This document shows, one piece after another, positions 3,370 to 21,132 of a stretch of 31,604 nt of DNA. The notes under the pieces are model-generated. The model ran no database searches. It was not told the DNA's origin and worked only from the letters and a program-made list of their open reading frames with translations. The stretch lies in NCBI GenBank assembly GCA_025934635.1, contig JAICWX010000075.1:1-31604 (forward strand), in the 5' to 3' direction. The position numbers and the translations under genes are program-made. This DNA comes from Streptosporangiaceae bacterium. GTDB taxonomy: Bacteria > Actinomycetota > Actinomycetes > Streptosporangiales > Streptosporangiaceae. The stretch's first letter is position 1, and the number at the start of each line of letters is the position of its first letter.

Positions 3370-4707
3370 CTAGCCGTCCTCGCGACCCTCGGGGCGGAAG
3401 CCGGCCCAGGGGTCGTAGTCGACCTCGAGGGGCTCCTGCGCCGGCCGCTCCGCCTCCGGGACGTGCCGCAGGTTCAGCCGGATCCGGTACCAGGCCGAGC
3501 TGCGCCCGCGCATCGCGTCGACCAGCACGTCAGCGGCCTCCAGCAGCGGCCAGACGTCGCCGTGCCGAGCCTTCCACCGCTCCAGCCCCGCCATCGCCTC
3601 GGCCTTGGTCTCCGCCCGCGCCACCTCGATCAGCGGCATCGTGCTCTGCCGGCGCCCCGTGGGGCTCTTGGCGCCGGTCCCCGAAGCCGCGCCAGAACCA
3701 GAACCGGCACTGCGCCGCTTGGACGGCTGGACCCGGGGCGCCTCGCCGGACTGCTTGTCGTAGTGCGGCGGCCACGGCGCGTCCGGCAGCCCGGCCGCCT
3801 CGTCCCTGGCCGCGAGCTCGAGCAGCCCGTACAGCGACCCGGCCGCCTCGTCCATCTCCGCCCAGGGGTCGCCGATCCGCGCGAACCGCTCCGGCATGGT
3901 CGCGATGGTGTACGCGGCCGGATCGCACGTCGGCACCTCGGCCCAGGTCAGCGGCGCCGATGCCCGCACGTCGGGCACCGGGCGCAGCGAGTAGGCCGAC
4001 GCCACCGTGCGGTCCTTGGCGTTCTGGTTGTAGTCCACGAACACGCCGTGCCGCTCTTCCTTCCACCACTTGGACGTGGCCAGGTCGGGAGCCCGCCGCT
4101 CGATCTCCCGCGCCACCGCCACCGCCGCCCGGCGCACGTCGGCGAACTCCCAGCGCGGGAAGATCCGGGCGTAGATGTGGATGCCACGTGATCCGGAGGT
4201 CTTCGGCCAGCCGGTGAGGCCGAAGTCCGCCAGCACATCCCTGGCCACCATGGCCACGTCCCTGATCTGCGGCCACTCCACCCCGGGGACCGGGTCGAGG
4301 TCGACCCGGAGCTCGTCCGGGTGGTCCAGGTCGGCGGCGCGCACCGGGTGCGGGTTCAGGTCGATGCAGCCCAGGTTGACCACCCAGGCCAGCACGGCCT
4401 CGTCGGTGACCACCACCTCGTCCGCGGTCCGGCCGGACGGGAAGCTGAGCTCCACCGTGCCGACCCATTCCGGCCGCTTGTCCGGCGCCCGCTTCTGGAA
4501 GAACGGCTCGGCCTCGGCGCCGTTCACGAACCGCTTCAGCGCCATCGGCCGGCCGCGCACGCCGCCCAGCGCGCCGGGCGCCACCGACAGGTAGTAGCGC
4601 ACCATCTCCAGCTTGGTGACCCCGGCGCGGGGAAAGTACACCTTGCTCGGGTTGCTGACCGCGACCTCGTGCCCGGCCAGCTCCAGGATTTCCTTCTTCT
4701 CAGCCAT
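3370..4707 (-). CDS. LigC-associated primase-polymerase (LigD polymerase-domain family)
   Basis: Archaeo-eukaryotic primase-type polymerase that fills short gaps, preferring ribonucleotides; in mycobacteria the homologue beside LigC (PrimPolC) acts in gap repair. The protein has 445 residues from ATG at 4707. Catalytic motifs are visible: DLDP (Asp136 and Asp138), SGSRGIHIY (171-179) and VDYNQNAKDRT with the third metal ligand at Asp225. A low-complexity Ser/Gly/Lys linker (about 325-365) joins a C-terminal segment WKARHGDVWPLLEAADVL often found in stand-alone actinobacterial members. The start codon lies inside the end of the upstream ligase gene (8-nt overlap), indicating translational coupling; a longer in-frame extension upstream of 4707 only reads through the ligase gene. 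Ku and the LigD nuclease domain are not in the window. Confidence 0.92.
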   Translation of the reverse strand: MAEKKEILELAGHEVAVSNPSKVYFPRAGVTKLEMVRYYLSVAPGALGGVRGRPMALKRFVNGAEAEPFFQKRAPDKRPEWVGTVELSFPSGRTADEVVVTDEAVLAWVVNLGCIDLNPHPVRAADLDHPDELRVDLDPVPGVEWPQIRDVAMVARDVLADFGLTGWPKTSGSRGIHIYARIFPRWEFADVRRAAVAVAREIERRAPDLATSKWWKEERHGVFVDYNQNAKDRTVASAYSLRPVPDVRASAPLTWAEVPTCDPAAYTIATMPERFARIGDPWAEMDEAAGSLYGLLELAARDEAAGLPDAPWPPHYDKQSGEAPRVQPSKRRSAGSGSGAASGTGAKSPTGRRQSTMPLIEVARAETKAEAMAGLERWKARHGDVWPLLEAADVLVDAMRGRSSAWYRIRLNLRHVPEAERPAQEPLEVDYDPWAGFRPEGREDG

Positions 4708-5791
4708 GAGGACTCTCCGCCGGACGGCCTTGCAGGATCTCGCCCAGGTTGAAGCTGACCGGTTCCTCGAGCTGGGCGTAGGTGCAGGAGCGTGGTTCCC
4801 GGTCTGGGCGCCAGCGGTTGAACTGCGCGGTGTGCCGGAACCGCGGGCCCTCCATGTGGTCGTAGCGCACCTCGACCACCCGCTCCGGCCGCAGCGGGAC
4901 GAACGACAGGTCCTTGTTGGCATTCCACCGGCTGAACATGGCTGCCCGCGGCGTCCGCTGCGCGGGCTGCTCCTCCGCCCAGTTCCACGGGTGCTGGTCG
5001 AACGTGGTGACCAGCGGCTGCAGCTCGGCGAAGAGCTCGATCCGCTTCTCCATCGGGAAGGCGCCGATCACCCCGACGCTGGCCAGCTTGCCGTCGTCCT
5101 TGTACAGCCCGAGCAGCAGCGACCCGATGCGGTCCTCGCCGCTCTTGTGCACCCGGTAGCCCGCCACGACGCAGTCCGCGGTGCGCTCGTGCTTGATCTT
5201 CTTCATCACCCGCTTGTCCGGCTCGTAGATGCCGTCGGCGGGCTTGGCGATCAGGCCGTCCAGGCCCGCGCCCTCGAACTGGCCGAACCAGCCCGAGGCC
5301 ACCGCCCGGTCGGTGGTCACCGGGGTCAGGTGAATGGGGGAGCGGACTCCGGCCAGCGCCTTCTCGAGCAGGGCCCGGCGCTCGGCGAAAGGGTGCTCGG
5401 TGTAGTCGACGTCGCCCAGCGCCAGCAGGTCGAACGCGATGAAGTGGCCCGGCGTCTGGACCGACAGCAGCTCGACCCGGCTGGCGGCCGGGTGGATCCG
5501 CAGTTGCAGCGCGTCGAAGTCGAGCCGCCTGCCCGAGCCGTCCGGGACGACGATCTCGCCGTCGATGACGCACCGCTCCGGCAGCTCGGCCCTGACCGCG
5601 GCCACCAGCTCGGGGAAGTAACGCGTCATCGGCCGCTCGTTCCGGCTCCCGATCTCGACCTCGTCGCCGTCCCGGAACACGATCGACCGGAAGCCGTCCC
5701 ACTTCGGCTCGAACACGTAGTCGCCGCTCGGTATCGCTCCCACCGGCTTGGCCAGCATCGGCGCCACCGGCGGGTTGACAGGAAGATCCAT
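4700..5791 (-). CDS. ligC: ATP-dependent DNA ligase, LigC type
   Basis: Seals nicks using ATP. The 363-residue protein closely follows mycobacterial LigC in length and motif order: the N-terminus LPVNPPVAPMLAK, motif I EPKWDGFR with adenylated Lys30, GSRNERPMTRYFPEL (motif Ia/III region), CVIDGEIVV, GLDGLIAKP (motif IV) and MKKIKHERTADCVVAGYR (motif V), followed by an OB-fold tail ending GRPAESPHG. ATG at 5791 is chosen over an upstream in-frame start because GAGGAAG lies 8 nt before it and homologues begin with M-x-LPV. It overlaps primPolC by 8 nt, so the two are expected to be made together. A tetR gene ends 58 nt upstream on the same strand, so a longer transcript is possible. Confidence 0.95.
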   Translation of the reverse strand: MDLPVNPPVAPMLAKPVGAIPSGDYVFEPKWDGFRSIVFRDGDEVEIGSRNERPMTRYFPELVAAVRAELPERCVIDGEIVVPDGSGRRLDFDALQLRIHPAASRVELLSVQTPGHFIAFDLLALGDVDYTEHPFAERRALLEKALAGVRSPIHLTPVTTDRAVASGWFGQFEGAGLDGLIAKPADGIYEPDKRVMKKIKHERTADCVVAGYRVHKSGEDRIGSLLLGLYKDDGKLASVGVIGAFPMEKRIELFAELQPLVTTFDQHPWNWAEEQPAQRTPRAAMFSRWNANKDLSFVPLRPERVVEVRYDHMEGPRFRHTAQFNRWRPDREPRSCTYAQLEEPVSFNLGEILQGRPAESPHG

Positions 5792-5849
5792 GCCCCCAGC
5801 TTCCTCGGTCAGGTCCGCTATCCGGGTTACTGCCCGCTCCCTCCGACGA

Positions 5850-6455
5850 TCATGCCGCACCCCCGGTCATCATGGCCAGCAGCCCGCTGGCCTGCTCGCG
5901 GAGCTCGGCCAGGGACGGGATGGCCGGGCCGCCCGCGCCGGCCAGCGCGTAGAAGGCGGTTCCCTCCATCCAGGCGATGAGCCTCCAGGCGTCGCGTTCG
6001 GGATGGGCGGAACCGGTCGCGGCGAGCACCGCGGCCACCTGGACGCGGATGGCGCGGCCCATCGCGTCGTAGGTGGCCCGCAGTTCCGCCCGCTGGGTCG
6101 CCTCCAGCGCCAGCTCGAACCGCGCGAGCACCCGCTGCCGGGCACCGGGGTCGGTGACCCACCGGTGCAGCACCGCCGCCAGCCCGGCCGCCAGCCCCGG
6201 CCCGCGCAGCTCGTCCGGCCCGTCCAAATCGCCCAGCTGGCTCTCGCCGTCGGCGGTTTCCAGCTCGCCGATCCGGGTCAGGGCCAGCGTCAGCAGCGCC
6301 GCCCGGGTACGGGCGTAGTTCGACGTCGTGCCGGGCGGCAGCCCGGCTGCCTGGTCGACGGCGCGGTGGGTGAGCCCGCGCGCGCCCTGCCCGGCCAGCA
6401 CGGCGATAGCGGCGTCGCCGACCTGCCGGGCGCGCGCGCTCGGTGCGATGGTCAC
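5850..6455 (-). CDS. TetR-family transcriptional repressor
   Basis: 201 residues from a GTG start at 6455, the only usable start in the frame. The N-terminal domain shows the TetR helix-turn-helix: ARQVGDAAIAVLAGQGARGLTHRAVDQAAGLPPGTT in two overlapping helices, ending in the usual Tyr-x-x-x-x-x-LL (SNYARTRAALL). The C-terminal half is a helical ligand/dimer domain with an IAWMEGTAFYAL segment. It is divergent from the flavin monooxygenase, and the 91-bp gap carries three related palindromic sites made of ACTACA/TGTAGT half-sites. The natural inference is autoregulation and repression of the monooxygenase until a substrate or product binds. The ligand is unknown. The start lacks a strong ribosome binding site. 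Confidence 0.92.
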   Translation of the reverse strand: MTIAPSARARQVGDAAIAVLAGQGARGLTHRAVDQAAGLPPGTTSNYARTRAALLTLALTRIGELETADGESQLGDLDGPDELRGPGLAAGLAAVLHRWVTDPGARQRVLARFELALEATQRAELRATYDAMGRAIRVQVAAVLAATGSAHPERDAWRLIAWMEGTAFYALAGAGGPAIPSLAELREQASGLLAMMTGGAA

Positions 6456-14127: not shown

Positions 14128-16596
14128 TCAAGCCTGGGTGGCGGCGTCGAGGTTCGCGCGCACGGCCTGGGTCATCTGGTCATCGGGTCCGAGGTAACGC
14201 TCGCAGTCGGACAGGGCCCGCTGCAAGACCGCGACGACATCGGCCAGTCGGCCGGCCGTGTAGTAGGCGGTGGCCAGGTTGCACCGGGTGGTCAGCGTCT
14301 CCTCATCGCCCGGGCCGAGCATCCGCTCGCTGTCGGCCAGCGCCCGCTCGTACTGGGGGATCGCGTCGGCCATCCGGCGCGCCTGCAGGTAGGCCGCGGC
14401 CAGGTTGGACCGCGCGGTCAGGGTGTCGCGGTGGTCGGGCCCCTGGACCCGCAGCCGGTCGGCGAGCGTCCGCTCGTACAGCGGGACCGCGTCGCGCAGC
14501 CGCCCGGCGCTGCGGTAGGCGTAGGCCAGGTTGGCCCGGGCGGCGATGGTGTCCGGGTGGTCGGCGCCCTCGGTCCGCTCGCGGTCGGCCAGCACCTGCT
14601 GGTACTGCGCGATGGCGTCCTTGGCCTTCCCGGCCGCGCGGAACGCCGAGGCCAGGCTGGCCCGGGCCGTGATCGTGTCCGGGTGGTCGGGACCGTGCAT
14701 CCGCTCCTGGTCGGCCAGCGCCCGCTGATACTGCGTGATGGCGTCCTTGGGCCGCCCGCCGGCCGCGTAGGCGGCGGCCAGCCCGGCCCGGGCGGCCAGC
14801 GTGGCGGGGTGGCCGACGCCGAGGTGGCGCTCGGCCTCGGTCAGCAGGGTCTCGTAGGCGGCCAGCGCCTGCCGCGGCTGGCCCGCCGCCCGGTAGGCCT
14901 GGGCCAGGCTGGCCCGGGCGTCCAGGGTGACCGGGTGGCCGGTGCCGAGCATCCGGGCGGAGTCGCCCACCGTCCGCTCGTACAGGGCCACGGCGTCGGC
15001 CGGGCGGCCGGCGCTGACGTAGGCGTGCGCCAGGTGGGTGCGGGCCGCGATGGTCTCGGGGTGCTCGGGACCCTGGTTCTGCTCCCGCTCGGCCAGTGCG
15101 GTCTGGAACACCGAGACGGCGTCCGCGGACTTGCCGGCCGCCTCGTAGGCGGCGGCGAGCCGGTCCCGGGCGACCACGGCGTTGGCGTGATCCGCGCCGA
15201 GCAGCCGGGTGCTGGTGGCCACCATCGACTTCCAGTACGTGATGGCCGCCTCGGACAGCCGGCTCTGCTCCAGCGAGAGGCCGGCCCGGAACAGCAGCGG
15301 GTGGGCCTCCGGCTTCCACAGCAGCGCGCCGTCGCTGGTCCGCAGCGTCGCCGCGCAGTCCCGCAGCGCCTGCTCGAGGTCGAGCTCCGCCGGCTGGGTA
15401 CCTGGGCCTGACGGCGGGCCGCCGTCGCCGTCCGGCCAGCTCTGCAGCAGGGCATCGGCGGCGGCCAGCACGGCCTGCTCCACGTCGGCGGCCGGCAGGT
15501 AGGCCCGGACCGCGGCCTGCACGCTGGCGTGCAGCTGTACGGTGCGCACGGAGCTGCCCGGGTCGATGGTGACCAGGCCCGCCTGCGCCAGGTTGTTGAT
15601 GGCCGCGCGCACCGTGGCCTGGTCGGCCGCGTTCGCGGTGCTCGGCCGGCCGGTGACGTAGCCGCAGGCGGCCGGGCTGGTCAGCACGGCGCCGGGCACG
15701 CCGTGGCCGTCGAGCATTGCCGCCAGTACCAGCGTCGGCCAGGCCAGCCCGGTCGGCGGCAGCTCGTGCGCGCACTCCGCGGCCAGCGACCAGGTGGCCA
15801 GCACGGCCGCGGAGACGCCGGGCACCGCGGGCATGTGCCGGCGTCGTTCGGCCAGCAGCGCGCGGTACTCCCGGCAGCCCTGCCCGCGCACCTTCATCAC
15901 CGCGGTGGCCTGCGCCAGCCCGAGCGGCAGCCCTTCCAGGTCCTCGCCCAGGTCCAGCGCCTCGATCCGCTGGTCCGGGTAGTCCGACAGCCGGGAGGTG
16001 AGGTAGTCCAGCGCCTCGCGGCGGTTCAGCCCGCTGACCCCGATGACGCGCAGGCCGGCGAACCCCGGGCCGTCGAAGGCCGAGCCCGGCAGCCGGCTGG
16101 TGATCAGGACCCGGCCGCAGGCGCCGGCCGGCCACAGCCCGTCCAGGTCGCTCAGCTCGGCCAGGTCGTCGAGGATCAGCGCCCACGGCTGCCTGGTCCG
16201 CTCCAGCCAGGATACGAACCGGGCCGCGGCCGCGTCCGCGCTCTCGTCCAGCGGGCTGGCGTCGGTCACGTTCGCCGCCTGCGCGAAGCCGGTCACGATC
16301 GAGTCCCGGCTGGCGCCGTTCACCCAGACCAGGACCTCCGCCGCCCGGGTATTCCACATCGTGTGGGCGAACTCGACCGCCAGCTGCGTCTTGCCCGTGC
16401 CGCCCTGGGCGGCCGGGGCCAGTTCGGTCTCGCCGCCGTGGACCAGCACCGCGGTCTCGCCGAGGCGGAGGGTGCCGGCCAGCCCGGGTCCGGCCAGCTC
16501 GCGCGGGAAGTAGGAGCGGGCGAGCGGCGGGACGATCCCGGACAGCAGTACGCCGGGACCCGAGCCTGACCCGGATTCTGCGTACGGCGTGGCCAT
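14128..16596 (-). CDS. NB-ARC/TPR STAND ATPase
   Basis: 822 residues. A short N-terminal segment with no recognisable effector is followed by an NB-ARC-type NTPase: P-loop GGTGKT (65-70), kinase-2 LILDDL (140-145), VLITSR (163-168) and a GLPLGLAQA motif (222-230). After a winged-helix-like middle region comes an array of eight full and one half tetratricopeptide repeats of exactly 42 residues, from about residue 465 to the end, each of the form GxDHxxTxxAxxxLAxAYxxAGR-xxDAxxxYExxLxDxxR. The repeat type is the kinesin-light-chain-like TPR common in actinomycetes. STAND proteins of this build sense a ligand through the repeats and oligomerise on ATP binding; roles include regulation and phage defence. 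Partner unknown. ATG at 16596 has AAGGG about 10 nt upstream. Confidence 0.88.
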   Translation of the reverse strand: MATPYAESGSGSGPGVLLSGIVPPLARSYFPRELAGPGLAGTLRLGETAVLVHGGETELAPAAQGGTGKTQLAVEFAHTMWNTRAAEVLVWVNGASRDSIVTGFAQAANVTDASPLDESADAAAARFVSWLERTRQPWALILDDLAELSDLDGLWPAGACGRVLITSRLPGSAFDGPGFAGLRVIGVSGLNRREALDYLTSRLSDYPDQRIEALDLGEDLEGLPLGLAQATAVMKVRGQGCREYRALLAERRRHMPAVPGVSAAVLATWSLAAECAHELPPTGLAWPTLVLAAMLDGHGVPGAVLTSPAACGYVTGRPSTANAADQATVRAAINNLAQAGLVTIDPGSSVRTVQLHASVQAAVRAYLPAADVEQAVLAAADALLQSWPDGDGGPPSGPGTQPAELDLEQALRDCAATLRTSDGALLWKPEAHPLLFRAGLSLEQSRLSEAAITYWKSMVATSTRLLGADHANAVVARDRLAAAYEAAGKSADAVSVFQTALAEREQNQGPEHPETIAARTHLAHAYVSAGRPADAVALYERTVGDSARMLGTGHPVTLDARASLAQAYRAAGQPRQALAAYETLLTEAERHLGVGHPATLAARAGLAAAYAAGGRPKDAITQYQRALADQERMHGPDHPDTITARASLASAFRAAGKAKDAIAQYQQVLADRERTEGADHPDTIAARANLAYAYRSAGRLRDAVPLYERTLADRLRVQGPDHRDTLTARSNLAAAYLQARRMADAIPQYERALADSERMLGPGDEETLTTRCNLATAYYTAGRLADVVAVLQRALSDCERYLGPDDQMTQAVRANLDAATQA

Positions 16597-18454: not shown

Positions 18455-18488
18455 ATATTCGCGGCCGTACGGGGAGGTGCAGGCACCA

Positions 18489-19157
18489 GTGCCCCTCTCG
18501 CAGGAGCGTCGTCAGGCTCAGCCGGAGGCCCTGCTGTCCTACATCGAGAAGCAAATCAAACAGTCGGTTGTTTCTGGCGAGCTGAAGCCGGGCGCCAAGC
18601 TTTCGCCCAGCGCGGTCGCGGCCAACCTGGGCGTATCCCATATCCCCGTGCGCGAGGCGCTGACCTCGCTCGCTGCGTCCGGGTACCTCGAGCACAAGCC
18701 GCGGGTCGGCTTCTTCGTCCGCATCCTGTCGTCCGAAGATCTGGCCGATATTTACCGCTGGCGCGAGATACTTGAGCGGGAGGCATTCATGATGGCCATC
18801 CCCCGGCTCACCGGCGACGATATCGAGGAAATGCGCAGGCTGTGCGGCCAGATGCGCAAGGTGGCCGGCTCCGTGCAACGGCGCGAATACCTGAACCTTA
18901 ATCGGCAGTTTCATTTCATCGCCTTCCGTCCGGCCGGCAGCGACCGGCTGCTCCGCTTCCTCACCTATCTCTGGGATGCTGCCGCGCCCTATACCTTCGC
19001 CGGCCTGGTCGACGCCGAGAAGGCCCAGCGGGACCACGAGCGGATGATCGGCCGGTTCGAGGCGCGCGACGTGGACGGGATCATCGAGCTGATGACGCAG
19101 CACCGCGGTCTCGCCGTCGAGGCCGTCGCCCGCTGGGAAGCCCGCGAGCGCCCCTGA
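18489..19157 (+). CDS. GntR-family regulator, FadR subfamily (FCD domain)
   Basis: 222 residues. The N-terminal winged helix-turn-helix shows the GntR pattern GELKPGAKLSPSAVAANLGV, then SHIPVREALTSLAASGYLE. The C-terminal FCD helical domain contains DIYRWREILEREA, LNRQFHFIAFRPAG and DHERMIGRFEARDVDG...MTQHR, with the His and Asp spacing expected for metal/ligand binding. FCD regulators usually sense carboxylic acids. GTG at 18489 is chosen because GGGGAGG (18471-18477) precedes it; the alternative GTG at 18477 overlaps that site and is unlikely. A perfect TATAAT and a FadR-like palindrome lie upstream. Neighbouring genes do not reveal a regulon. Confidence 0.88.
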   Translation: MPLSQERRQAQPEALLSYIEKQIKQSVVSGELKPGAKLSPSAVAANLGVSHIPVREALTSLAASGYLEHKPRVGFFVRILSSEDLADIYRWREILEREAFMMAIPRLTGDDIEEMRRLCGQMRKVAGSVQRREYLNLNRQFHFIAFRPAGSDRLLRFLTYLWDAAAPYTFAGLVDAEKAQRDHERMIGRFEARDVDGIIELMTQHRGLAVEAVARWEARERP

Positions 19158-19211: not shown

Positions 19212-19259
19212 CCAGCCAAGCGCAACCAGCCGAGCGCAACCAGCCGAGCACAACCAGCC
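19212..19259. repeat. 14-nt tandem repeat, 3.4 copies
   Basis: CCAGCCAAGCGCAA (19212-19225), CCAGCCGAGCGCAA (19226-19239), CCAGCCGAGCACAA (19240-19253), then CCAGCC. It sits directly left of the DnaA-box cluster. Confidence 0.8.
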
Positions 19260-19267
19260 TGCCCTCG

Positions 19268-19487
19268 TTGTCCCCACTTCAGTGGTTACGCCGAGTAACG
19301 GCCACGAAAGCGACCATCGGTGGTTTTCAACTAATCTCAGCCCCGGTCGTCCACATGGCTGCACAGTTCTCCACAGCCCCGGGGGCCTTCCCCGCTAGGG
19401 CGAGCCCGTGACCGTGTCCACAGCATGGAGATCGTTATCCCCGCCTCGTCCACAGAACGGCCCGCTTTGTCCACATGGCAATCCACA
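19268..19487 (+). promoter_or_regulatory. Cluster of DnaA-box-like sites
   Basis: All on the plus strand: TTGTCCCCA (19268), TCGTCCACA (19347), TTCTCCACA (19367), GTGTCCACA (19414), TTATCCCCG (19435), TCGTCCACA (19446), TTGTCCACA (19467) and CAATCCACA (19479). TTGTCCACA is the preferred DnaA box of Streptomyces, and the 19467 copy is perfect. Six sites end in TCCACA within 141 bp. The chromosomal origin normally lies between dnaA and dnaN, which are absent here, so a DnaA-titrating cluster, as described outside oriC in Streptomyces, is the likeliest role. DnaA control of the downstream NUDIX/dapF genes is an alternative. Confidence 0.7.
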
Positions 19488-19573
19488 GACCCGCGGAGGT
19501 AGCGTGCTTCTTCCTGGGTAGTGAGGGACCCAGGTAAGGGTGGGGATTTCTGGGGCGCGGCAAGGCGGTCACT

Positions 19574-20107
19574 ATGAGCAGAGCCGACGGCACCGCGATC
19601 GTTGCGACGGTTGAGCATCGCCGCAGGGTGGTCGTGGACGTCATCCTCTTGCTGATGAGGAACGGGCGCATCCTGTTGCGGGAGCGGGCCAACACGGGTT
19701 ACGGGGACGGTGCCTACGAACCTCCGACCGGCCAGCTGGCCGACCGGGAAACGATCGTGGAAACGGCGATCCGGGTCGCCTCGGCCGAGGCGGGGATCGC
19801 CATCCGGGCCGAGAACGTGTCGCTGGCGCATGTCATGCACGACGTGTCCGGCAGCGGGCGGATCGCGTTCTTCCTGAGCGTCTCCGGCTGGCCGGGCGAG
19901 TTCATCTCGCCGGACGCGCGCTGGTTCCCGACCGCGAACCTGCCCACGAACATGCTCGACCGGTCCCGGGTGGCGCTGCGGAACTACGCCGAGGGCATGC
20001 GCTTCTCCACTTACCCGGCGTTCGGCCCGGCCGGGACCGGCGGCGGCCCCGCGCTCTACGGCACCCTGCACGAGGCGGCACCCTGGCAGGACGCCTTCAG
20101 CGCCTGA
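19574..20107 (+). CDS. NUDIX-fold protein with degenerate catalytic box
   Basis: 177 residues. The beta-strand RVVVDVILLLMRNGRILLRER and the helix region GQLADRETIVETAIR-VASAEAGI place it in the NUDIX hydrolase family; the tail RIAFFLSVSGWPGEF and ARWFPTANLP is typical of small actinobacterial members. The canonical box is GX5EX7REUXEEXGU. Here the G, the first E and the R are kept, but the Glu after Arg is Val and the first Glu of the EE pair is Ala, leaving a single metal-ligand Glu. Hydrolysis of nucleoside diphosphate-linked substrates is therefore doubtful; a binding or sensing role is possible. ATG at 19574 has AAGGCGG about 7 nt upstream. dapF begins 44 nt downstream. Confidence 0.85.
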   Translation: MSRADGTAIVATVEHRRRVVVDVILLLMRNGRILLRERANTGYGDGAYEPPTGQLADRETIVETAIRVASAEAGIAIRAENVSLAHVMHDVSGSGRIAFFLSVSGWPGEFISPDARWFPTANLPTNMLDRSRVALRNYAEGMRFSTYPAFGPAGTGGGPALYGTLHEAAPWQDAFSA

Positions 20108-20151: not shown

Positions 20152-21132
20152 ATGGCCGAGATCCTGAACGCGCACGGCTCGCGGAACGACATCTTCGTCG
20201 TCCCGCTGACGCCACGCGACTTCGCTTCCGACGACGAGCTCACCGCCTTCGTCCGGCGCCTGTGCGACCGGGCCGGCCCGTTCGGCGGGGACGGCGTGTA
20301 CTTCTACGACGCGGCCCCGCCGGTCCCCGAGGCCTGGTTCTTCAACCCGGACGGATCGTCGGCCGAGTTCTGCGGCAATGGCATGCGCTGCCTCGGCCGG
20401 GTCATCCTGGATCTGCGCCAAGCCGATACCGCCAAGATCCGCAGCGGCCAGGCGCAGTACACGGTCCGCCGCGGCGCCACCACCGGGGAAGGTGTCCGGC
20501 AGGTCAGTCTCGAGCACCCCGCCGTCGATTTCACCCCGGTAAAACCCGTGGTCACCGGCCGGAACCCGCTGACCGAGGCCCGCCTGCCCGAGCTCGACCC
20601 GGCCCTGACCTTCACCGCCGTCACGATCCCGAACCCGCACCTGGTCGCCGCGGTCGACAAGTACGTCGAGGCCGACCTGATCGCGATGGGGGAGCAGGTG
20701 GCGGCCCGCCGCGACCTGTTCCCGGCCGGAGCCAACCTGTCGGTGCTGCTCCCGCTGACGCACGACCATGACGAGGTCTTCGTCCGGACCTTCGAGCGCG
20801 GCGCCGGGCTGACCGCCTCCTGCGGCTCCGGCATGGCCGCCGCCCGGGCGGTCTGGTCCCGCATCGGCGAGGCCGGCCCCGAGCGCGCGGTCCTGATCCG
20901 CAACGCCGGCGGCACCGCCACGGTGTCGCTGGAGGTTCAGGACGACGGATGGCACCCGGTCGTCAACGGCAACGCCACCCTCGTCTACCGCGCCGAAGTC
21001 GACCCAGCCGCCCTCGCCGCCGGGCGAAGCGCGGACAAAGCCATGTACGACGAAGAAGAACGCGCCTACGCCGCCCTGGAAGAGCGGAACGCGACCCGCC
21101 TGCGCGAAGCCGGCGTCGAAACCGGGACGTAG
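20152..21132 (+). CDS. dapF: Diaminopimelate epimerase
   Basis: Interconverts LL- and meso-diaminopimelate for lysine and peptidoglycan synthesis without a cofactor, using two Cys. Both are present: FNPDGSSAEFCGNGMRC (Cys74) and ERGAGLTASCGSGMAAA (Cys224). The N-terminus HGSRNDIFVV matches the family's HGxxND motif. At 326 residues it is longer than the usual 270-290 because of a charged C-terminal extension (about 290-326), the last residues of which are encoded by a tandem repeat that also supplies the stop. Some positions (FGGDGVYFY, GSRNDI) differ from the commonest actinobacterial sequence, so this could be a second copy, which cannot be settled from the window. It appears to be leaderless. 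Confidence 0.9.
   Translation: MAEILNAHGSRNDIFVVPLTPRDFASDDELTAFVRRLCDRAGPFGGDGVYFYDAAPPVPEAWFFNPDGSSAEFCGNGMRCLGRVILDLRQADTAKIRSGQAQYTVRRGATTGEGVRQVSLEHPAVDFTPVKPVVTGRNPLTEARLPELDPALTFTAVTIPNPHLVAAVDKYVEADLIAMGEQVAARRDLFPAGANLSVLLPLTHDHDEVFVRTFERGAGLTASCGSGMAAARAVWSRIGEAGPERAVLIRNAGGTATVSLEVQDDGWHPVVNGNATLVYRAEVDPAALAAGRSADKAMYDEEERAYAALEERNATRLREAGVETGT

Follow-up and report, generated by a model that had tools for sequence, protein, structure and literature searches.

A conserved array of DnaA-box-like sites at the putative promoter of a presumed NUDIX-dapF operon in Streptosporangiales

The box array and its genomic setting

The window (the whole 31,604-nucleotide stretch analyzed here) contains a gap, flanked by a GntR/FCD gene (18477-19157) and a gene encoding a NUDIX-fold protein (19574-20107), that is overlapped solely by mechanical minus-strand ORFs, in keeping with its earlier description as gene-free. 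The NUDIX gene is followed after only 44 bp by dapF, from which we infer that the two genes are cotranscribed. The gap harbors six plus-strand TCCACA cores within 138 bp (19350-19487), starting at positions 19350, 19370, 19417, 19449, 19470, and 19482, while the opposite-strand core, TGTGGA, is absent from it; six such cores, one of them in a perfect box and all in one orientation, are what the first-pass annotation had described. The features are as follows.

19212..19259, plus strand: 14-nt tandem repeat, outside the conserved element and missing in the closest relative
19268..19276, plus strand: near-match site TTGTCCCCA, outside the conserved element and missing in the closest relative
19347..19355, plus strand: S1, weak DnaA-like box TCGTCCACA; all 18 aligned elements have a TCCACA core here
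19367..19375, plus strand: S2, weak DnaA-like box TTCTCCACA; core retained in 16 of the 18 elements (not in L102 or L130)
19414..19422, plus strand: S3, weak DnaA-like box GTGTCCACA; by core match and element alignment
19446..19454, plus strand: S4, weak DnaA-like box TCGTCCACA; by core match and element alignment
19467..19475, plus strand: S5, strong and perfect DnaA box TTGTCCACA, first half of a double box
19479..19487, plus strand: S6, CAATCCACA, a weak box separated from S5 by 3 bp and completing the double box
19500..19505, plus strand: putative -10 element TAGCGT (TANNNT), exactly 12 nt past the S6 core, assigned from sequence only
19574..20107, plus strand: NUDIX-fold protein (PF00293) whose Nudix box is degenerate, first gene of the presumed operon
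20152..21132, plus strand: dapF, diaminopimelate epimerase (PF01678, TIGR00652, both catalytic Cys motifs)

The conserved element runs from the first box through the -10 box (19347-19505), and S6 occupies the position where a -35 element would stand. Eight sites had initially been claimed: nine-mers with at most one mismatch from TTGTCCACA occur at six positions (19268, 19347, 19367, 19414, 19446, and 19467) and CAATCCACA at 19479 provides a seventh, weaker site, but no clear eighth was found in the gap. The 14-nt repeat, described earlier as lying next to the cluster, and the site at 19268, counted as part of it, are both present but are not regarded as parts of the array, since the closest relative lacks both and keeps the rest of it.

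Dinucleotide shuffling of the window (1000 shuffles) gave a maximum same-strand TCCACA count per 140 bp of one (821 shuffles), two (177), or three (2), compared with six in the array. Sites with up to two mismatches are not enriched over the window as a whole (48 versus 40.8 expected, with 13 of 100 shuffles equally high), and the signal thus resides in the cluster. These shuffle counts, together with the conservation across relatives described below, lead us to reject chance clustering.

Two further features of the window deserve mention. A large TPR-repeat protein (by Pfam), with an N-terminal part that by eye resembles an NB-ARC ATPase, is encoded at 14128-16596 on the minus strand. ORFs that by eye resemble parts of the LigD ligase of nonhomologous end joining lie near the operon in the window (4700-5860, minus strand) and in L004, L006, L007, L008, L009, and L012, in some cases with an adjoining polymerase-like part.

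Conservation and distribution of the array

A scan with the NUDIX protein returned 13 loci, 12 of which (L001-L012) are actinobacterial and derive mostly from Streptosporangiales MAGs, plus Trebonia kvetii (9.3 Mb), a named strain among the 12 genomes; L013, a weak NUDIX match from an unrelated bacterium, lacks the array. The array is found upstream of the NUDIX gene in all of L002-L012, and L001 begins within it such that the last two boxes alone are visible. In the L001 genome (G002), a second contig, C142, has the complete array, with a GntR gene adjoining it just as in the window, and breaks off shortly past the NUDIX start. Loss of the motifs in close relatives, which would have spoken against the original proposal, was looked for and the motifs proved to be conserved instead; relative to its closest relative, the six cores of the window differ solely at the free position of S5 (TTGTCCACA versus TTATGCACA). 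The upstream neighbor is a GntR gene in the window and G002, a DUF4282 gene in Trebonia, and a BNR/sortilin-like gene (named by likeness to that of Trebonia) in L002 and L003, whereas NUDIX followed by dapF is constant, which argues that the array belongs to the downstream genes.

A sequence-only model of the array (R1), built from 12 elements, gave 17 matches with E <1e-13 in the 12 genomes (150 candidates scored per genome), comprising 12 NUDIX elements and five others. The latter are located upstream of MazG-like genes (L102, L130, L140, and L146) and a PRA-PH gene (L064). The L146 protein matches the MazG alignment at 8.4e-39, and that of L102 falls below the Pfam cut-off for MazG-like proteins (23.6 versus 27 bits); a nucleoside 2-deoxyribosyltransferase gene (PF05014) adjoins the latter on the opposite strand. 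With the window included, copies of the array thus number 13 upstream of NUDIX(-dapF) and five upstream of pyrophosphohydrolase genes of the MazG/PRA-PH type, and these sequence comparisons identify the array as a conserved promoter module.

These 18 elements (window and G002 C142 included, L001 excluded as incomplete) share a common architecture. Successive core starts are separated by 18-21, 45-48, 32-33, 21-22, and 11-12 bp (typically about 20, 46, 32, 21, and 12 bp), values that carry a slight bias toward regular spacing because the best core was picked from within 1-3 bp of its expected place and, for S4, also from 11-12 bp further upstream. In L007 and L010, the S4-S5 spacing is 32 rather than 21 bp as a result of an 11-bp insertion, which adds TTGTGCACG or TTGTGCACT, a TTGTGCAC-type box, 2 bp before S5. 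S5 and S6 start 12 bp apart, leaving a 3-bp gap, in 17 of 18 elements, and TANNNT occurs exactly 12 nt past the last core in all 18. A search for TCCACA-N25-28-TCCACA-N11-13-TANNNT, which requires no choice of best core, returned 12 matches from 10 of the 12 genomes and none for the reversed control; ten of these are NUDIX promoters and two are MazG/PRA-PH promoters, and G007 and G010 were missed because of the insertion. In an alignment of ten NUDIX elements that excludes L007 and L010 (11-bp insertion) and G002 C142, identity is 97.5% in the core columns and 47% in the spacers. Most NUDIX elements (L004 to L012) also have a T-rich TTTTCC-like motif ≈13-14 nt upstream of S1, which may represent a seventh box in degenerate form; at this position, the window has only TTTTCAAC.

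Counting 16-18 nt upstream from the -10 box leads to a hexamer between S5 and S6 that bears no resemblance to TTGACA, and the promoter therefore looks to be activator-dependent or of the -35-less kind. Promoters without a -35 element are known in actinobacteria.

Within the 345 genomes of the order, a spaced S2-S3-S4 triple occurs at 26 places, against six for the reversed control. These correspond to one NUDIX array in each of the 12 genomes (12 in all), one PRA-PH array, one site upstream of dnaB, three dnaN/oriC sites (two inspected, the third near-identical), and nine simple tandem repeats as judged from the matched letters. A stricter pattern, applied to 345 genomes of the class, gave one match, taken for chance, and one reversed-control match; since this pattern misses true elements (at least those of the window, L004, and G002 C142), absence of the array outside the order is only indicated. 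A MazG search returned matches in 20 of 345 genomes and added the module in two further genomes (L211 and L214). No array was found at the close MazG orthologues L212 and L213, at 12 more distant MazG loci (L215-L226, with L227, L229, and L230 outside this count), or at the PRA-PH homologue of Trebonia.

The NUDIX protein departs from the Nudix box, Gx5Ex7REUxEExGU, in that the Glu of RE is lost in all 13 sequences, window included, and L008 alone has an intact EE pair. NUDIX matches occur in 172 of 345 genomes, with the 12 orthologues at E ≤1.8e-70 and the next match at 4.2e-38; all 18 of the outside homologues inspected keep RE..EE, and in none of these 18 was the array, or any TNCACA core, found in ≈450 nt upstream. 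Judged by these residues, the array-linked protein is unlikely to be an ordinary Nudix hydrolase. Window DapF scores 132.7 bits against the TIGR00652 cut-off of 114.65, and the array-linked DapFs of five of the 12 relatives fall below that cut-off. The array-linked DapF is the only one found in 11 of the 12 genomes, most of which are MAGs of uncertain completeness, and in G007 it was found as two pieces at one place. The sole second DapF in the 12 genomes (L232, on G004:C31) scores 225.7 bits and is closer to TIGR00652.

Resemblance of the sites to DnaA boxes

The consensus DnaA box is TTATnCACA (PMC5742627). Among 108 element sites, variation within the core is found mainly at the n of this consensus (C in 87, G in 18, T in 2, and A in 1), and the other five core positions are kept in 101-108 of the 108. 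S5 is a TTNTNCACA-type DnaA box at the putative promoter, and S1-S4 and S6 match that type in part. The TT of S5 is retained in 17 of 18 elements, and S5 fits TTRTNCACA in 11 of 13 NUDIX elements, with C at position 4 in L004 and L011; L064, L102, and L140 have a degraded S5 core.

We compared the flanks of 61 exact cores from 12 elements (S5 from the window only) with those of oriC boxes and of 32 isolated TCCACA sites. G at +6 is found in 84% of element sites, 84% of oriC boxes, and 28% of isolated sites, and a purine at -1 in 79%, 87%, and 38%, respectively. The TT content had been expected to favor DnaA but did not, with T at -3 in 33% of element sites, 78% of oriC boxes, and 25% of isolated sites, and T at -2 in 18%, 74%, and 6%. 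We read the element, from these base preferences, as weak boxes around one strong box.

The arrangement of S5 and S6 conforms to the rule from E. coli ChIP-seq, according to which DnaA in vivo prefers box pairs 2 or 3 bp apart, with one extra base pair between paired boxes weakening binding (PMC11317965), and the boxes adjoin a core promoter in the form of the predicted TANNNT. Among 15 oriCs of the order, 93 same-strand spacings fall within 6-16 bp, namely 9 (15), 11 (31), 12 (45), and 14 bp (2). Ten oriCs of the group itself (n = 21) have spacings of 9 (2), 11 (3), 12 (8), and 13 bp (8), and the E. coli rule may not hold exactly here, given how common the 13-bp spacing (4-bp gap) is. The array and the oriCs of Streptosporangiales, in the dnaA-dnaN gap, both use TCCACA(G) boxes, with same-strand spacings of 11-13 bp in oriC; many oriC boxes carry TT and several oriCs use both strands, whereas the array boxes lie all on one strand, are mostly weak, and, from S1 to S4, are more widely spaced (20, 46, and 32 bp) than the 11-12 bp of oriC arrays.

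When R1 was applied, with stricter filters (13 candidates per genome), to 200 genomes of the order, 54 had a match at E 1e-4. The best-scoring 29 of 58 listed places (besides those of G001) were inspected, with genes named by likeness, and comprise 17 oriCs (dnaA-dnaN gaps), six sites upstream of dnaB, one upstream of dnaA, one inside the dnaA coding sequence, and four without a replication link. R1 shares its core with oriC boxes, and this result thus shows motif kinship rather than binding; the oriC matches in part reflect the TCCACA richness of both.

The genome-wide motif count that had been proposed was made on the 12 related genomes, where TCCACA triplets within ≈80 bp number 43 (0 to 9 per genome) against four for the reversed pattern; such clusters are rare. 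Sixteen of 30 fetched triplet loci were inspected and include one NUDIX array, one PRA-PH array, six rplI-dnaB gaps, two sites on the 5' side of dnaA (one of them, L070, placed there by its neighbors alone), and six without an evident replication link. The clusters upstream of dnaB in the rplI-dnaB gap (L049, L050, L051, L054, L057, and L061) resemble DnaA boxes, with S18 and DnaB Pfam-checked in L057 and the genes of the others named by likeness. Six other genomes of the order likewise have a cluster of this kind at dnaB. In L074, which lies outside the group, one is found upstream of dnaB with a MATE-like gene adjoining.

Predicted control by DnaA and competing explanations

The comparative evidence argues well for two earlier proposals, that DnaA boxes here lie outside oriC and that they form a replication-linked switch for NUDIX-dapF; we consider it likely, on these genome comparisons, that DnaA regulates transcription of the two genes via the array. 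The S5-S6 double box would cover about -45 to -25 of a promoter consisting of a TANNNT -10 box with no recognizable -35 box, and S1-S4, in the same orientation and at fixed spacing, would extend ≈120 bp further upstream. DnaA would anchor at S5/S6, most likely in its ATP form given that most boxes are weak and that ATP improves the binding of S. coelicolor DnaA to such boxes (PMC3411110), and spread cooperatively over S1-S4. Bound at S5/S6, it would contact the stretch corresponding to the -35 region and change the use of the promoter by RNA polymerase; we lean slightly toward activation over repression. Expression of the NUDIX-like gene and dapF would thereby be tied to replication initiation, as would, in some relatives, that of the MazG/PRA-PH pyrophosphohydrolase genes.

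Double-box promoters of this general kind are described in E. coli (nrdA, purH, polA, and nrdD), where same-direction boxes 2-3 bp apart lie upstream of the gene, one box is often degenerate, as here, and several targets are likewise nucleotide-metabolism genes (PMC11317965). The array departs from these in several respects: it has four additional weak boxes at wide, constant intervals; its distance to the -10 box is constant; and it recurs at several genes, with dapF, NUDIX-like, and MazG genes as targets. The sda gene of B. subtilis has an upstream box array. DnaA binds the sda promoter directly and regulates the downstream gene, a role like that predicted here, although the genes are unrelated (PMC8203912).

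The strongest competitor is a dedicated transcription factor other than DnaA that recognizes NNRTCCACAG and regulates a small regulon of NUDIX-dapF and MazG/PRA-PH genes. Such a factor could account for the fact that five of the six sites mostly lack the TT of strong DnaA boxes, for the conservation of S6 and of the ATGG flank after S5 beyond what a DnaA box needs, and for an element found only in part of one order, as expected of a lineage-specific regulator. However, variation at the n position and the 3-bp spacing of the double box speak for DnaA, the +6 and -1 preferences are those of oriC boxes, and a DnaA-like core in another transcription factor would have to be a coincidence; we consider this explanation unlikely.

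We regard as quite improbable a DnaA reservoir, also proposed in the first-pass annotation, or a datA-like locus at which the array titrates or inactivates DnaA and restrains initiation, its link to a promoter being incidental. Like the array, datA and the clusters known from S. coelicolor and B. subtilis consist of DnaA boxes outside oriC; the essential boxes of E. coli datA point in the same direction, as here, and the S. coelicolor and B. subtilis clusters are reported to repress untimely initiation (PMC5742627). A reservoir is also consistent with the small number of TCCACA triplets per genome. Independence from a promoter or gene is nonetheless what the array fails to show: in contrast to those clusters it adjoins a -10 box, at a fixed 12 nt in every element, it recurs at the promoters of other, unrelated genes, and it stays with its downstream gene while the upstream neighbor varies; its boxes, moreover, are mostly weak. 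A second or cryptic replication origin is very improbable, for although box density is like that of oriCs from the same lineage, ten relatives have TCCACA boxes (two or three exact cores in six of them) in the gap from dnaA to the next long ORF (dnaN by position), and the window boxes have a single orientation, lie at a -10 box, and are flanked by GntR/FCD and NUDIX-dapF with no dnaA or dnaN adjoining, among the ten window ORFs scanned, or, by eye, in the gene list, which agrees with the original view that this is probably not the origin.

Returning to control by DnaA, we tentatively extend it, at somewhat less than even chances, to a reusable module responsive to ATP-DnaA that has spread to several unrelated genes, including those for what is apparently the only diaminopimelate epimerase of the lineage, a catalytically degenerate Nudix protein, and, in some species, nucleotide pyrophosphohydrolases. 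DnaA has been characterized as a transcription factor in few species, and its regulons differ greatly among them (PMC8203912). A six-box promoter architecture recognizable in sequence would allow DnaA control to be tested readily in actinobacteria, and, if the prediction is correct, the supply of cell-wall and lysine precursors and the cleaning of the nucleotide pool would be coupled to chromosome initiation. To our knowledge, DnaA would then be connected directly to a dap gene for the first time. Within the literature collection searched, no paper joins dapF and "DnaA box" or MazG and "DnaA boxes," and the two matches to Nudix and "DnaA boxes" look, by listing, like genome papers.

Finally, five of the 12 genomes contain a second DnaA-box-like array (L131, L132, L134, L135, and L136, at ≈1501-1680 in each) beside an ORF that by eye is amidohydrolase-like, although the neighbor in L135 looks different. 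This array mixes TTATCCACA, TTATGCACA, and TTGCGCACA, in most cases closes with a CCACAG..CTGTGG inverted pair, and is a possible datA-like locus.
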